Below, one piece after another: positions 2,747 through 20,930 of a stretch of DNA of 22,793 nucleotides (positions are counted from its first letter, which is position 1; every line of letters starts with the position of its first letter). The translations under genes were made by a program, and so were the position numbers. The notes beneath the pieces are model-generated. The model was not told where the DNA came from. It saw only the letters and a list, made by a program, of their open reading frames with translations, and made no database searches. The stretch covers positions 1 to 22,793 of the IMG/VR virus record IMGVR_UViG_3300025645_000494; one strand, given 5' to 3'. Source of the DNA: a virus.

Positions 2747-3166
2747 TTAGGTTGTAACTTGACTTCTTACAGGAGTTCCCGCAAAGTTTAAAGTTGCTGA
2801 AAATGTAATTTGTGAATCCTGATCTGAAGTAATTTCAAGACTGTCTATTGCTACAATTACAGTAATGATTTCTTCGCCTGGATCAGTACCGCCCCAAATA
2901 GCAGTAACCAAATCCCCTAACTGTTCAAATAAATCAAAGGCAGAAATATTTGGATTTGTTGGAGTTGAGTTATAATCACCTGTAAAGGAAATTGATCCTT
3001 CTTTTTGACCTCCGGCAATTCTTTTGCCATAATCACCCTCGCAACGATTACGAACTAATACGGAAGAGTTAGAGACAGAAAGCGTTGATGATTGCTTGCA
3101 AACTAGTTCAATTCCTGATCCAAGTAGCAATGCGAAGTTTTGACCGAGCGTGTATGTTGATGCCAT
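2747..3166 (-). CDS. Major tail tube protein
   Basis: A 139-residue protein starting MASTYTLGQN at ATG 3166. It is beta-rich (alternating Thr/Ser/Val) and has a central Gly/Ser-containing segment typical of TP901-1-like tail tube subunits. It lies immediately before the chaperone pair and tape measure, the standard siphophage position for the tube protein. An in-frame ATG at 3205 would add 13 residues, but the shared late-promoter layout puts the -7 element 18 nt upstream of 3166, so 3166 is preferred. Expected to polymerise as hexameric rings. Function rests on synteny plus fold-like composition. Confidence 0.8.
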   Translation of the reverse strand: MASTYTLGQNFALLLGSGIELVCKQSSTLSVSNSSVLVRNRCEGDYGKRIAGGQKEGSISFTGDYNSTPTNPNISAFDLFEQLGDLVTAIWGGTDPGEEIITVIVAIDSLEITSDQDSQITFSATLNFAGTPVRSQVTT

Positions 3167-3184
3167 GTTGCTTATTCGTTTTAC

Positions 3185-3216
3185 CAAATATGCCAATAAT
3201 CGCAATAAAAAACAAA
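3185..3216 (-). promoter_or_regulatory. Late promoter A (tail tube operon)
   Basis: On the minus strand TTTG (3216-3213) is followed after 20 nt by CATATTTG (3192-3185), close to the Bacteroidetes promoter TTTG/TANNTTTG. The leader then carries AAACG, and the ATG of the tail tube gene is 18 nt from the -7 element. The same arrangement occurs upstream of the protease, portal and small terminase genes. Confidence 0.7.
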
Positions 3217-3267
3217 AATAATTTTTTTTCTATGGTTTTAATTCTTAATATTGGATTAATATTTAAC

Positions 3268-3391
3268 GGATAACGGACGAGTGTATGAGCAGTAGTTTTG
3301 CACAATCTTTGATAAATAAACAGAACTTTAAATTAATAACCAAGCGATAGTTAAAAGGCTGACAGGCTATTGCTTATACACATTGTTAGCC
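3268..3391 (+). repeat. attC-like integron recombination site 1
   Basis: R'' GGATAAC (3268-3274) and R' GTTAGCC (3385-3391) are complementary at 6 of 7 positions. Between them, L'' GTGTATGAGCAGTAG (3281-3295) and L' CTATTGCTTATACAC (3367-3381) are complementary at 13 of 15. They enclose a 71-nt central spacer. The order R''-L''-spacer-L'-R', with short unpaired spacers between R and L, is the architecture of integron attC sites. The expected cleavage point is between G3385 and T3386. A TANNTTTG match lies in the spacer (3293-3300), without a clear -33 partner. Confidence 0.7.
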
Positions 3392-3680
3392 ACCGTTTTA
3401 TTATGCAAAAACATTTGATTAGAGATGAAAAGAAAGCACTTGAGTATATTGTTGATTGCACTCTTGCAACAGTAAGCCACATGGCAATGCTTAAAAGTAG
3501 AAAAAAAGGTGAATATGAAAGACAAATACAAATAGCACAAACAGGCGTAAATTGGCTTGCGGATTTTGATGTAAAAATAGAAGTTAATAGTAGAGCTTAT
3601 CAAGTGCTTTCTTGCCCTTCCAAGACAGTAAAAGAATGGGTTGAGAAGTACGAGTCTTAAATTGTGGCTAACGGACAGGG
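3386..3680 (+). mobile_element. Integron-like gene cassette 1 (3' site truncated)
   Basis: The unit begins after the G/TT point of attC-like site 1. GTTAGCCAC (3385-3393) is the exact inverted complement of GTGGCTAAC (3664-3672) beyond the ORF. In integron cassettes the first bases of a cassette pair with the R'' box at its own 3' end, because both form one attC in the circular molecule; that relation is met here. The 3' site keeps R'' and GGACAGGG but no matching L'/R' arms follow, so it looks truncated. The right boundary is approximate. Confidence 0.6.
3403..3660 (+). CDS. Cassette-borne protein of unknown function
   Basis: An 85-residue soluble protein (start MQKHLIRDEK) on the strand opposite to the tail genes. 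It has a helical, basic first half (Arg/Lys near 30-45) and a C-terminal part ending VKEWVEKYES. The frame is open upstream to 3370, but that part lies inside the attC-like arm, and ATG 3403 follows the TTATT leader also seen before neighbouring cassette ORFs. It is bracketed by the matched cassette ends at 3385-3393 and 3664-3672. No family was recognised. Integron cassettes commonly carry such small orphan genes. Confidence 0.65.
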   Translation: MQKHLIRDEKKALEYIVDCTLATVSHMAMLKSRKKGEYERQIQIAQTGVNWLADFDVKIEVNSRAYQVLSCPSKTVKEWVEKYES

Positions 3681-3716
3681 ATGTATTTAGTGCGAAATTT
3701 AATTACAAAACATATT

Positions 3717-3953
3717 ATGGAAAACGAAGAAATATTACAAAAATTAAGATCGGTAAAACTAACTCTTATGGCACATCCAGACAATGAGCCGAATAGCGAA
3801 TTTGAAGATCAGATAAGTACAATCGAAGAAATAGAGCAAGCATTGAATACATCTAATGTTGTAGATATGTTAAAACCTTTAAAAAGAATGTGCTTTGATT
3901 GTCAAGAACCATTATTAGACAATGAGGATGTTTGGTGTAGTGAATGTATGTAG
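3717..3953 (+). CDS. Small protein with C-terminal zinc ribbon
   Basis: A 78-residue acidic protein starting MENEEILQKL. The first 55 residues are helical and Glu-rich. The C-terminus carries CFDC, then a 12-residue spacer, then CSEC, a CxxC/CxxC pattern expected to bind one zinc. The longer frame from 3681 begins with TTG-type codons inside cassette-end sequence, so ATG 3717 with its CATATT leader is preferred. It lies between two attC-like regions. The partner gene at 4376 has the same kind of ending, which suggests two related zinc-ribbon proteins. The function is not known; the ribbon could bind nucleic acid or protein. Confidence 0.6.
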   Translation: MENEEILQKLRSVKLTLMAHPDNEPNSEFEDQISTIEEIEQALNTSNVVDMLKPLKRMCFDCQEPLLDNEDVWCSECM

Positions 3954-3965
3954 GTTTTAATTATA

Positions 3966-4098
3966 TACAACTTCCGATGGCTTTGCTGTCGGGCGGGACT
4001 TTTGGAAATGAAATTATCAACCTAAACAGAATTTTATATGGAAACTCAAACATCAATTAACCACCAAACCCCGCCTGCGGCAAAACCATTGTTAGCGG
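3966..4098 (+). repeat. attC-like integron recombination site 2
   Basis: L'' (3977-4005, beginning ATGGCTTTGCTG) and L' (4061-4089, ending GCGGCAAAACCAT) pair along most of their length, with a few mismatches and one bulge. Outside them lie an AAC-ending R'' box (TACAAC, 3966-3971) and R' GTTAGCGG (4091-4098). R''/R' complementarity is poor apart from AAC/GTT. The loop contains the ATG used by the next ORF. The geometry matches attC, but the R box is weaker than in site 1. Confidence 0.55.
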
Positions 4099-4319
4099 CT
4101 GGGCTTTCTGTTGGTGAAATAATAGTTGCTGATATTATTGGCGAAGGGTTTTACGAAATCCATTCTTTCGGAGAAATATTTGTAAATGTAAAGTTGCTTA
4201 AATTATTTGGAAAAGGATGGAAATGGCGTGGTCATATTACCAACTGCCATAATTACCCTGAGCCAATAAACTTAGAAAGATGGATGAGTTATCGGAGGGT
4301 TTCAAAGCCTTGCCGCTAA
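4038..4319 (+). CDS. Cassette-borne protein starting inside an attC-like loop
   Basis: A 93-residue protein whose ATG (leader ATTTTAT) lies in the central spacer of attC-like site 2. Its residues 9-19 are encoded by the L' arm and R' box, and the TAA stop is part of the R'' box GCCGCTAAC (4312-4320). After the site-encoded head the sequence is hydrophobic and then rich in aromatic residues (GKGWKWRGHITN), suggesting a small beta-type domain. No family was recognised. No other start codon is obvious after the R' box, so read-through from the site is the simplest reading. That would make the head a product of recombination rather than part of the ancestral gene. Confidence 0.5.
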   Translation: METQTSINHQTPPAAKPLLAAGLSVGEIIVADIIGEGFYEIHSFGEIFVNVKLLKLFGKGWKWRGHITNCHNYPEPINLERWMSYRRVSKPCR

Positions 4320-4345
4320 CGGACACAGATATGATTAGTTTTTTT
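4092..4345 (+). mobile_element. Integron-like gene cassette 2
   Basis: GTTAGCGGCTGGGCTTT (4091-4107) pairs with AAAGCCTTGCCGCTAAC (4304-4320) at 15 of 17 positions. GTTAGCGGC/GCCGCTAAC is perfect, and it differs from the first cassette's pair GTTAGCCAC/GTGGCTAAC at the same two positions on both sides. Matched ends within each unit and mismatched ends between units are what integron cassettes show. GGACA follows R'' in both. No convincing L'/R' arms follow, so this unit also has a degraded 3' site and its right edge is approximate. Confidence 0.55.
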
Positions 4346-4375
4346 TGATTATTAAACGAACAAATTTTAAATATT

Positions 4376-4540
4376 ATGAAAAAGGAAAATAAAAGTACAG
4401 AACCTAAAAACACGGATAAAAAATTAATTATATCTGATGTTATGGTTGAGTTGCCTGAATATGAACTTGATTTTTGTGATAAGTGTTTTCAGATGACTAA
4501 CCACTTAAATGGTATTTGCCAGAAATGTAAAGGCAATTAA
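4376..4540 (+). CDS. 54-residue protein with C-terminal zinc ribbon
   Basis: A short ORF (start MKKENKSTEP). The Lys-rich N-terminus looks disordered. A short strand region follows, then FCDKC, an 11-residue spacer, then CQKC near the end. The CxxC/CxxC ending resembles that of the protein at 3717-3953. The ATG follows an AAATATT leader like its neighbours. It comes directly after the R''-like box at 4312-4320, so it is probably the last gene of the cassette-like island. Function unknown. Its small size makes coding status less certain, but the cysteine pattern argues for a real gene. Confidence 0.5.
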   Translation: MKKENKSTEPKNTDKKLIISDVMVELPEYELDFCDKCFQMTNHLNGICQKCKGN

Positions 4541-4641
4541 CCATAACATAATATATACGCAACTATTAAAATGCATTTTAAAACGCTATAAAGGCTATTT
4601 TTTTGTGATTATTCAAAAAAAATATATGCGCAATAGGTATT
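4541..4641. other. A/T-rich spacer between convergent genes
   Basis: This stretch separates the last plus-strand small ORF from the end of the minus-strand tail terminator gene. It holds a near-perfect direct repeat (AATATATACGCAACTA at 4550-4565; AATATATGCGCAATAG at 4621-4636) and a 16-nt palindrome, TTAAAATGCATTTTAA (4566-4581). No intrinsic terminator with a strong G/C stem is visible on either strand. Confidence 0.5.
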
Positions 4642-5085
4642 TTAAAGCTCAAAAACATCAAATGAATAGTTGATTACTTTCCTAAATGCTACCTCAGTAG
4701 ATCCGAATTCAATCCTAGATAAAGCATTGATCTTATCCACTTTCAAAAGCTGAAATGATGATCCTAAATCCAAAGAGTTAGTAATCAAAGGCTGGATTAC
4801 CTCGCTAATCTTCTCACTTGCTAATTTTCCTCCTGAACCCTTTGGAAACTTAGTTATTATGTCAATGGTAAGGCTTAATGATTGCCGTTCGTTACATCTG
4901 TTTCCGGTTGTTTCTGATTCGTTCTGATCGGTTATTAGAACATAACATCTAGCACCTCGGTAAAGTGGTAAAACTGTATTAGGATTAAGAAATGAATCCT
5001 GTAAAGGAATTACAACCAACTCAACCGTTAAAGGACTGAGTGCCGTTAATACTGCCTGTCTAAGTGTTAATCCTGCTTCTATCAT
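4642..5085 (-). CDS. Tail terminator / tail completion protein
   Basis: A 147-residue protein in the gene slot usually held by the tail terminator (gp17/DUF3168-like). It is predicted to be alpha/beta, with an N-terminal helix (MIEAGLTLRQAVLTAL), and would cap the tail tube at the neck. It overlaps the gp10-like gene by 4 nt (ATGA), indicating translational coupling. The next late gene, tail tube, is normally adjacent; here it is separated by about 1.5 kb of opposite-strand island. Assignment rests mainly on order and size. Confidence 0.6.
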   Translation of the reverse strand: MIEAGLTLRQAVLTALSPLTVELVVIPLQDSFLNPNTVLPLYRGARCYVLITDQNESETTGNRCNERQSLSLTIDIITKFPKGSGGKLASEKISEVIQPLITNSLDLGSSFQLLKVDKINALSRIEFGSTEVAFRKVINYSFDVFEL

Positions 5086-7167: not shown

Positions 7168-8397
7168 TCATTTCAAATGGCTTTTTTCATCAAATGGATT
7201 TTTATCGCTCCATGCCCTGTATAGGTGAAAAACATAAAGATTGTCCATTATACCAATTTTTAGCCCTTTAGCCCTTACTTTCTGATTGAATATCGTATCA
7301 AATGCAATGTGGTTTTCTTCAAAGCCTCCTACCTCCTTCCAAGTGGATTTTTTAAAAGCCATAAAGCAGCCCGCTACACCTAATTGTTTTAAATCCGTTA
7401 TCCCTGGATCCTCATACTTTTCTGATTGAGCTATCTTAATATGATTTTTAATATTCATATCCTCAGAAAACGTGTTATTGTGGCATTGGTGCATTCCTCT
7501 AAGCCTATTTGTAAAGCATCCAATCAGCCCAAACCTTGATCCATGCAAAGCCAAAGACTTATAGATTCTTTCGCCCCAATCAGGAGTAAGATAGGTAATA
7601 TCTCCATCTTGTAATACGATCCAAGTATCATCCTCCCACTTTTCGCAAAACTCATTTAAAGCCCTTCCAATGTTCTTATTAATACTGAAAGGATTTGAAT
7701 AGACAATCTTTAAAGGTATCACATAACCGCCTTGATTTTTTTGCATAAAAAGATTTGCAGAATGATTGCCTAGCAACTTGAAATATGAGTACATTACAAC
7801 CCGTTTAATCGAATTGATCTTAGTTCCTGTCATGTAACTAGCATACGGAAAAGTTAATTGATCTCGATGGCTGTATTGATTCAATGCTTTTGCCCAAACC
7901 AACTCCAACCGCTTCACTTCATCTGACTTATCCCGAATTAAAACCCCATTAGCCCAAAGGCCAAAATCAACCCGACACCCTGATTCCTTTACAAATTTAA
8001 TCGTTCTTTCTACTGATTCCCTTGTATCTTTTCCTAGCTTGATAATCTTTTCACCCTCAGATATTATGTCTTGCCTCTCATTATGGATGCAGGTTAAAAC
8101 ACCTCCTTTGTAATAGGTATCAATAAACTGATTAGCATCTGAAATTTGCTGAAAGTTGCCATCAAAGTAAATGGTTAAATCGTATCCATCAGTATATTTA
8201 TGGGAAAGGATTTTGATTAACCTTTGTTGCTTATAGTTGTTTTGCTCTTTTGGAATGACCTTAATTTTCCATCCTAAAGCCTTTAGATTTGGATTATCTG
8301 TGAAAAGAATATAATCCCAACCAGGGCTATTCCTTGTTGATTTAGGAACATCATAATCATTTGTGATTACTGAATAGATTAACTTTTTGTTAGCCAT
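7168..8397 (-). CDS. Two-domain glycosyltransferase
   Basis: A 409-residue protein with two sugar-transfer-type halves. Residues 1-215 resemble the DUF616/TOD1-like fold: YSVITNDYD, then DYILFTDNP, YKQQRLIKIL, the acidic YFDGN near 77-81 and HRDQLTF near 177-183. Residues 228-400 look like a GT-A family 2 domain: PLKIVYSNPF, WIVLQDGDITYL with a DxD-like QDGD at 263-266, and VAGCFMAFKKSTWKEVGGFE near 341-360, the usual acceptor-side motif. It overlaps the methyltransferase gene by 19 nt. Likely targets are virion proteins or a host surface glycan; neither is shown by sequence. The pairing with a Methyltransf_24 gene suggests assembly of a decorated sugar. Confidence 0.75.
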   Translation of the reverse strand: MANKKLIYSVITNDYDVPKSTRNSPGWDYILFTDNPNLKALGWKIKVIPKEQNNYKQQRLIKILSHKYTDGYDLTIYFDGNFQQISDANQFIDTYYKGGVLTCIHNERQDIISEGEKIIKLGKDTRESVERTIKFVKESGCRVDFGLWANGVLIRDKSDEVKRLELVWAKALNQYSHRDQLTFPYASYMTGTKINSIKRVVMYSYFKLLGNHSANLFMQKNQGGYVIPLKIVYSNPFSINKNIGRALNEFCEKWEDDTWIVLQDGDITYLTPDWGERIYKSLALHGSRFGLIGCFTNRLRGMHQCHNNTFSEDMNIKNHIKIAQSEKYEDPGITDLKQLGVAGCFMAFKKSTWKEVGGFEENHIAFDTIFNQKVRAKGLKIGIMDNLYVFHLYRAWSDKNPFDEKSHLK

Positions 8398-8927
8398 CCT
8401 TCATTTTCTTTGTAATCTTCAAAGGTTGTTTCCATATCCACAAATCCTAATTCTAGTTTATGCCTTGACTTACGGATTATTCCCAGCCCATATTCGTCAT
8501 CCCAATAGTCTAGCTTTAACTTAGTATTGATTTTAAGGCCATTCCAAGCCCTCCATACATCTCCAGTCCATACCGTTTGAATCCTTGGCACTTGTTGCAT
8601 TTGAAACGTGTGTGGCTTAATATCATGGATCAAAATCATACCGCATTTATTCAGGAAATTCCAAGAGTTTACAATATCTCGTTCTACTTGGTCGGCATGG
8701 TGTAGGCTATCAATGAAAATAAGGTCAAAGGTATCTTGGCAATGCTCAAAGAAAGTGTCTGAGTCAAGAGTTCCAATGTCTTTTCCACTTACAGCCGGAT
8801 CAATTCCAATTTTGGTCTGAACATCAACCCCTTTAAAATTATTCCCATCACCTAACCCAATTTCCAAGTAGCTTGAAAATCCATTTGCTTTGATTAGCCC
8901 GTTTATGTATTCAGTTCTTTTGTTCAT
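8379..8927 (-). CDS. Class I SAM-dependent methyltransferase
   Basis: A 182-residue Rossmann methyltransferase of the Methyltransf_24 type. Motif I is YLEIGLGDGNNF (about 20-31), an acidic end of strand 2 follows (GIDPAVS), motif IV-like DLIFIDSLHHADQVERDI lies near 68-85, and a conserved HDIKP occurs near 100. This family often sits beside glycosyltransferases and modifies sugars or glycan-bearing proteins, which agrees with the overlapping downstream glycosyltransferase. The substrate cannot be read from the sequence. Confidence 0.75.
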   Translation of the reverse strand: MNKRTEYINGLIKANGFSSYLEIGLGDGNNFKGVDVQTKIGIDPAVSGKDIGTLDSDTFFEHCQDTFDLIFIDSLHHADQVERDIVNSWNFLNKCGMILIHDIKPHTFQMQQVPRIQTVWTGDVWRAWNGLKINTKLKLDYWDDEYGLGIIRKSRHKLELGFVDMETTFEDYKENEGWLTKS

Positions 8928-12465: not shown

Positions 12466-12496
12466 TTTATAAATCCATTTTTTAGAATTAGATTTG
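12466..12496 (+). promoter_or_regulatory. Promoter of the PAPS-reductase-like gene
   Basis: TTTA (12466-12469), a 19-nt spacer, then TAGATTTG (12489-12496), a full match to TANNTTTG. The ATG follows only 3 nt later (12500), so transcription from this element would begin at or next to the start codon and give a leaderless or nearly leaderless mRNA. It is back to back with late promoter B. Confidence 0.6.
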
Positions 12497-12499
12497 ACT

Positions 12500-13312
12500 A
12501 TGAAAACAATCAACTCTTTAAGCGGTGGTAAAACCTCTTCATATATGGCAGTTCATTACCCTACTGATTTTAATATTTTTTCATTAGTAAGAACTGAGTC
12601 TGAATATTGCAGATCAAAAGACAAAAATCTTATAAAATACGTAAGTGATAAAATAGGCATAGATTTCATTGCAACTGCTGAAAGTGATAAAACTCTTTAC
12701 GTTGTTCGTGATTTGGAGCAGTTGATAGGCAAAGAAATACTTTGGGTATCAGGAGATTCATTTGAAAAGGTTATTGAAAAACGGAAGGCATTACCCAATA
12801 TGATGTGGAGGTTTTGCACTACTGAAATGAAAATGAAACCTATTTTTGAGTATTGCCAAAATGAAATAAAAGAGATTGTTCAGATGCAAATTGGTTTCCG
12901 GTATGATGAAAAGGAAAGGGCTAATAGAGAAAATACTACTTTCAAGGCTGTTGTAGGTCAAAGTGAAAATGGAAGAAACAAATGGGATGAAATCTATTGG
13001 AGGGAATTAAGCTATCCAATGATTGATGATAAAAAAACACATCCAACTATTTCAAAGTGGGCTAATGATTCAGGTTTAATTTTTCCAAACGATTCAAATT
13101 GTGTTGGTTGTTTTTGGAAACCATTTCAGCAACTTAGAAAGAATTGGGAAGATGAACCTTTAAAAATGAGATGGTTTTCTGAAATGGAAACCAAAATGAA
13201 TAGATCATTTAAAAAGGAAATGAATTACAAAAAGGTTAAAAAAATAGGCATTCAGCAGGATTTTAATTTTGGTACTGGCTCAGGATGTCAGGCAGGATTT
13301 TGTACAGATTAA
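12500..13312 (+). CDS. PAPS-reductase-like PP-loop protein (moron)
   Basis: A 270-residue protein of the phosphoadenosine-phosphosulfate reductase/adenine-nucleotide alpha-hydrolase superfamily. The PP-loop SGGKTSS is at 8-14, an RTES segment at 31-34, and MMWRFCTTEMKMKP at 101-114. Cysteines C106, C201, C204, C263 and C268 could hold an iron-sulfur cluster, as in the DndC/TtcA branches. Phage members are common but their substrate is largely unsettled: sulfur transfer to DNA or tRNA, or nucleotide chemistry, are options. It is transcribed against the surrounding head genes from its own promoter and ends 2 nt before the convergent head morphogenesis gene, the layout of a moron. The in-frame TTG at 12494 is less likely as the start than ATG 12500. 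Confidence 0.75.
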   Translation: MKTINSLSGGKTSSYMAVHYPTDFNIFSLVRTESEYCRSKDKNLIKYVSDKIGIDFIATAESDKTLYVVRDLEQLIGKEILWVSGDSFEKVIEKRKALPNMMWRFCTTEMKMKPIFEYCQNEIKEIVQMQIGFRYDEKERANRENTTFKAVVGQSENGRNKWDEIYWRELSYPMIDDKKTHPTISKWANDSGLIFPNDSNCVGCFWKPFQQLRKNWEDEPLKMRWFSEMETKMNRSFKKEMNYKKVKKIGIQQDFNFGTGSGCQAGFCTD

Positions 13313-20546: not shown

Positions 20547-20930
20547 ATGGAAAGAACTAGCCAAAAACGTGCGCAAAACCTCGGACTATCTAAGAATAAA
20601 AAAATCTTAGCTGAAATTGAAAAGAGTTACCGGAACAGCGAGCCTATCAATGATATTGCATTGAAATTACAGCTAACCCCTAGCCAAGTTAGCAGGATTG
20701 TTTACAAGGTCTTAAAATGCCCTAAGTCAGGAAGGAACAGCAACCAGGGAAGGCCAAAAAGTAACTGGAAACCTGAGCTAACCGAATATCAGAAAGATAG
20801 GATTCATCAATTAGCCCTGTTTGATTACACGGCAAGAGAAATATCAGAAGATACGGGAGTCGCTGTCAAGTCAGTAAAATGGACTATTGAAAGCCTTAAT
20901 TTGGCTGAGAACTTAGTAGAATTGGATTAA
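20547..20930 (+). CDS. Putative DNA-binding protein with two HTH segments
   Basis: A 127-residue basic protein. A first HTH-like segment spans about 34-53 (PINDIALKLQLTPSQVSRIV) and a second spans about 92-112 (YTAREISEDTGVAVKSVKWT). Between them is a basic linker (PKSGRNSNQGRPKSNWK). The arrangement resembles small phage regulators or transposase-type N-termini. It is the last gene before the structured leader and terminator at 20938-21045, so it could regulate that switch; this is inference. Confidence 0.6.
   Translation: MERTSQKRAQNLGLSKNKKILAEIEKSYRNSEPINDIALKLQLTPSQVSRIVYKVLKCPKSGRNSNQGRPKSNWKPELTEYQKDRIHQLALFDYTAREISEDTGVAVKSVKWTIESLNLAENLVELD

Follow-up and report, generated by a model that had tools for sequence, protein, structure and literature searches.

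The integrase IntI is what defines an integron, and integrons are regarded as rare among Bacteroidota; Xer recombinases resolve chromosome dimers at one dif site. Integrase-less attC arrays on virulent phages are already known, and when two attC sites of the Polaribacter phage P12002L were assayed with IntI1, one of them (attC2) recombined (Qi et al., 2023, PMC9892861); that study links no recombinase or attI to the phage sites. A search of the open PMC literature returned no description of a cassette system without IntI. The DNA analysed here comes from IMG/VR, as a virus record that has 22,793 bases and may be incomplete; its full length is called the window. It is from a virus of Bacteroidota-type bacteria that bears four tiny swappable gene cassettes, and our main reading, which we hold at a probability of about 0.86, is that positions 3266-4567 contain an attI-like platform and four cassettes that belong to an integron-like system found in Bacteroidota and their phages. 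This system is widespread and appears to use an enzyme other than the classical integron integrase. Its likeness to an integron (IntI + attI + attC) lies in the tandem one-ORF cassettes with ends matched within each unit, in the folded sites with R''/L''/L'/R' boxes and AAC/GTT cores, and, in relatives of the array, in an insertion platform beside a tyrosine recombinase.

The array was delimited with a chain test, in which the best run is sought of alternating site links (AAC to GTT, with paired arms and fixed spacing) and cassette-body links (GTT to AAC, complementary in no fewer than 8 of 9 bases). The results of this paired-box chain analysis showed eight links in a row on the plus strand at 3266-4547, between two tail genes, and thus four cassettes head-to-tail: a site at 3274-3385, a body to 3672, a site to 3858, a body to 3971, a site to 4091, a body to 4320, a site to 4439 and a body to 4547. 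The maximum was three links in 400 dinucleotide shuffles and two links elsewhere in the window, and the opposite strand likewise gave two. The features of the locus and its two neighbours are listed below.

2747-3163, minus strand: phage major tail (tube) protein, left neighbour (phrog_1407, E 7.6e-9)
3266-3393, plus strand: attC-like site 0, opens cassette 1; R'' ACGGATAAC, L'' GTGTATGAGCAGTA, L' TATTGCTTATACAC, R' GTTAGCCAC
3403-3660, plus strand: ORF1 of cassette 1, 85 aa, matches no known family
3664-3866, plus strand: attC-like site 1, with a long loop, opens cassette 2; R'' GTGGCTAAC, R' GTTGTAGAT
3717-3953, plus strand: ORF2 of cassette 2, 78 aa, CxxC...CxxC at its end
3963-4099, plus strand: attC-like site 2, opens cassette 3; R'' ATATACAAC, R' GTTAGCGGC
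4038-4319, plus strand: ORF3 of cassette 3, 93 aa, ATG within the attC loop
4312-4447, plus strand: attC-like site 3, opens cassette 4; R'' GCCGCTAAC, R' GTTATGGTT
4376-4540, plus strand: ORF4 of cassette 4, 54 aa, ATG (4376) within the attC loop
4539-4567, plus strand: terminal R'' box AACCATAAC, then the attI-like sequence ATAATATATACGCAACTATT
4642-5085, minus strand: phage tail terminator, right neighbour (phrog_176)

The matched ends agree in 9 of 9 bases for cassette 1 (GTTAGCCAC/GTGGCTAAC), cassette 3 (GTTAGCGGC/GCCGCTAAC) and cassette 4, which ends at 4547 (GTTATGGTT/AACCATAAC), and in 8 of 9 for cassette 2, which ends at 3971 (GTTGTAGAT/ATATACAAC); the matched box bases are intact in all four units and the outer bases agree within each. 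The L arms of site 0 (GTGTATGAGCAGTAG / CTATTGCTTATACAC) form 13 Watson-Crick pairs out of 15 plus two G.T pairs, and the arms are GATGTATTTAGTGC / GCATTGAATACATC in site 1 and CAGATATGATTAGT/ATTAATTATATCTG in site 3. With paired R''/R' and L''/L' boxes and an AAC/GTT core, the sites are of integron type, and four of them in a window with no recombinase agree with the description of a CALIN (at least two attC and no nearby intI). An earlier note on this DNA had reported that a phage bears cassettes of integron type and that no integrase is visible, with two attC-like sites and two pairs of matched ends, all of which we recovered, the sites at 3266-3393 and 3963-4099 and the pairs with 9 of 9 bases each. 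The two units it counted are real, but the total is four, and the sites at 3664-3866 and 4312-4447 were overlooked because in each of them the R' box falls within an ORF whose start is in the loop of the same site (ORF2 and ORF4); the ATG of ORF2 (3717) is within the attC loop and the reading frame passes through L' and R'. Folding of site 0 alone had a z of -0.81, which is not significant, and a covariance model (R1) built from trimmed sites of short-loop copies, which finds genomic short-loop copies, did not pick up the sites of the window (best E 1.1), probably because of their long loops. Simple DNA folding per site gave weak or no significance in general (z -2.3 for 3963-4099 on the plus strand), so the chain test was used instead, and an Rfam search returned no match. 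The cassette ORFs are small and AT-rich, and no homologues were found for ORF1 among the viral contigs or for ORF1 and ORF3 among phage records; the four cassettes probably supply the phage with a shuffled set of small accessory proteins.

Genes for tape measure, tail tube, tail terminator, head, portal and terminase form a structural block of siphovirus type on the minus strand of the window, and the array lies, as the earlier note had placed it, between the tail terminator and tail tube genes and in the orientation opposite to them. The comparison with related phages that had been suggested did reveal the empty site: in four contigs (L002-L005), whose tail terminator is 42-43% identical, terminator and tube are adjacent, 40 bp apart and without an array, in comparison to 1,478 bp in the window, and the tube leader TATTTGKTAAAACGAATAAGCA is common to the window and all four. 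No recombinase was found in the 22.8 kb of the window or in L004, a 37 kb relative without the array. Elsewhere in the window, glycosyltransferase (phrog_26101) and methyltransferase-like genes stand inside the structural block (7168-8397 and 8379-8927, both minus strand), a phosphoadenosine phosphosulfate reductase-like gene (12494-13312) lies on the plus strand, unlike the structural genes, and a short inverted repeat at 20669-20696 (ACAGCTAAC..GTTAGCAGG) resembles paired R boxes with a 10-base loop and has no L arms.

Members of the site family occur on Bacteroidia chromosomes as well as on many viral contigs, among them P12002L (chains of 10 and 6 links) and the Cellulophaga phage phi18:3 (a chain of 6 links). 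In the first 195 loci, 43 strict sites were counted in comparison to 1 in reversed sequence. The viral loci that were fetched by pattern take in chance matches such as L006. An alignment of 38 sites gave a covariation score of 0.504 in comparison to 0.158 for shuffled sites, and 86% of its cells were paired, a figure inflated by a choice of sites made partly on pairing. Unlike in integrons, the spacers of the family have fixed lengths of about 6 and 3 nt and the G.T pairs are polar: position 27/50 is a near-fixed G.T in 35 of the 38 sites, and the wobble pairs numbered 73 G.T to 7 T.G in the first scan, which did not impose a polarity, and 242 to 44 over 80 viral loci with a recombinase. The latter asymmetry hints at one favoured strand. 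At the DNA level, site 0 is 75-91% identical to sites in L014, L131, L388, L335 and others and 75% identical to phi18:3, while site 3 is 73-77% identical to cassettes of the recombinase-bearing viral loci L335, L382, L357 and L344; the matches of cassettes 1 and 4 to cassettes of such loci extend over attC and leader.

In the recombinase-bearing viral loci, a conserved AT-rich attI-like stretch (TATTATATATAAACA...) comes directly after the last AAC. The array end of the window (ATAATATATACGCAACTATT) matches this attI in 17 of 21 positions when compared by shift-tolerant matching with a one-base shift, on account of which a strict position matrix mis-scored it. It ranks first among the 747 AAC sites of the window, the internal boxes reach at most 14, and a shuffled flank reached at least 17 in 2 of 2000 trials against an AT-rich background. 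The window has the same site family and attI type as the arrays beside an XerA/IntI-like recombinase; its attI-like sequence stands at the array end without a recombinase, and in the relatives attI adjoins the recombinase gene.

That recombinase was traced from a chromosomal locus (L218), where an array of 14 links adjoins a tyrosine recombinase other than IntI. At an E-value of 1e-30 or lower, 124 of 149 genomes have a relative of this protein, with ordinary Xer proteins among the matches counted. An array was present near 15 of its 40 best homologues (chromosomal loci), with many contigs among the array-less loci ending 100-1,400 bp from the gene, in comparison to 0 of 20 control recombinase loci, and 9 of the 15 arrays begin 48-159 bp beyond the recombinase stop codon. 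The linked recombinases match XerA, Xer and IntI models and are below the TIGR02249 (IntI) cut-off. Their best matches in sequence and fold are XerA and XerC-XerD (NF040815, PDB 5hxy), and the fold predicted for the recombinase (pLDDT 72) most resembles those of XerA and IntI4; unlike Xer, the gene adjoins cassette arrays, in comparison to the 20 other Xer-type loci without one. They lack the insert that separates the catalytic Lys from the HxxR motif in IntI. An IntI with its specific additional domain, by which an integron is recognised, is represented neither in the window nor by the linked recombinases. Beside the chromosomal recombinase, L218 (11227-11589, minus strand) and L162 (1115-1516, plus strand) encode a small protein that weakly matches the DUF2116 treble clef and could possibly be an accessory factor.

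A shorter relative, 266-267 aa long, is encoded on some of the viral contigs that have an array, and a search with three such phage recombinases yielded 80 viral loci, which contained 73 chains in comparison to 0 in reversed sequence. The array was directly upstream on the same strand in 47 of the 56 loci with at least 1.5 kb of upstream sequence, most arrays ending 33-61 bp before the recombinase match; in these 56 loci, 68 chains were upstream on the plus strand, in comparison to 1 each for the opposite strand and the downstream side. The gene order in viruses is thus array and then recombinase, in comparison to recombinase and then array in Bacteroidia chromosomes, with one exception (L299) in which a chromosomal 6-link array of the other polarity is upstream of the recombinase. 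The ORFs differ as well: in phage cassettes they run along the site polarity (91 versus 2, and 253 versus 10 in a separate count over the 80 viral loci), so that, unlike in chromosomal integrons, the ORF comes after its attC, whereas chromosomal cassette ORFs run against it (4 along, 56 against). An ATG lies inside attC in 95 of the 253 phage cassettes. It seems that the phage cassette carries its own start signals and that the chromosomal cassette is read from the recombinase side.

The strongest rival is a classical CALIN, in which a host IntI moved cassettes from a chromosomal IntI integron to a secondary site of the phage. We consider it unlikely, even though integrase-less attC clusters in phages and the recombination of attC2 by IntI1 (PMC9892861) are precedents, the P12002L sites have the same layout by eye, and IntI exceeds the TIGR02249 cut-off in 105 of 395 genomes sampled from the phylum of genome G006. 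In the class of G006, presumably Bacteroidia, only 1 of 295 sampled genomes has it, the site family is tied to a recombinase that is not IntI, the array end resembles a phage attI rather than a random secondary site, and the ORF polarity is opposite to that of chromosomal cassettes. The delivery by a classical host integron integrase that the earlier note had proposed is for these reasons not supported.

In each of two pairs of viral contigs, a unit recurs within unrelated flanks (351/351 and 357/359 bp identical), and both ends of the exchanged units fall at AAC boxes. Among 88 site pairs, the downstream flank was common in 5 and the upstream flank in 0. Because the exchanged units end at AAC boxes and only the downstream flank is common, the mobile unit, as read from the sequences, is a site plus the following body, that is attC and its following ORF, which fits a cut of the folded strand at AA^C; the unit boundaries of the earlier note shift to this AAC cut. 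The exact-ended mobile unit is seen in the relatives, and the window shows the anatomy. An exchange that swaps protein N-termini, with the ATG in the upstream attC, was rejected, since attC and the following ORF travel together.

Homologous recombination between similar hairpins or leaders, as in phage mosaicism, with the hairpins serving as transcription terminators or translation leaders, would find its shared homology in the conserved attC and leader stretches, and both the frequent start codons in the loop (95/253) and the G.T pairs are compatible with it, the latter also with folding as RNA. It is nevertheless improbable, as the breakpoints are at AAC boxes on both ends rather than random within shared sequence, the outer box bases are matched within each unit, and the linkage to recombinase and attI is tight. 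Least credible are chance inverted repeats or degenerate, currently inactive remnants, which would suit small AT-rich ORFs without homologues and a window without a recombinase, since chain significance and covariation refute a pure chance origin and the matched boxes are intact in four units.

Under the preferred reading of an attI-like platform with four cassettes, the recombinase would bind one folded strand of the attC-like site, cut it at AA^C, excise units as circles and insert them at attI, and a phage unit has its ORF after the attC, with a start codon that is often located in the attC loop. For the window array the recombinase may act in trans, from the host, a co-infecting phage or an unsequenced part of the genome, or it may have been lost. 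In general, the analysis suggested a second integron lineage, independent of IntI and spread across Bacteroidia and their phages, which we hold to be probable and in which a XerA-like recombinase would use an attI of its own to capture and shuffle cassettes; the phages would have a mirror-image form, each cassette with its own leader and a start codon inside attC, and the window would keep the attI and four cassettes and borrow its recombinase. If this is true, cassette capture with another recombinase is common in chromosomes and phages, which changes where cassettes are to be sought and accounts for part of the rapid turnover of small genes in phages, and the same site logic without the IntI insert offers a natural comparison for the evolution of attC recognition.

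Two sequenced phages may be added here. P12002L (L126, 14498-14640 and 31-41 kb) has, besides its 10-link and 6-link chains, a further site between tail genes, and its array content thereby exceeds the pair of attC sites in the assay of Qi et al. (2023). The Polaribacter phage Leef_1 (L404) has a 5-link chain at 2843-3930, about 1 kb upstream of an annotated integrase that is 34% identical to the L120 recombinase, which makes it a possible laboratory model.
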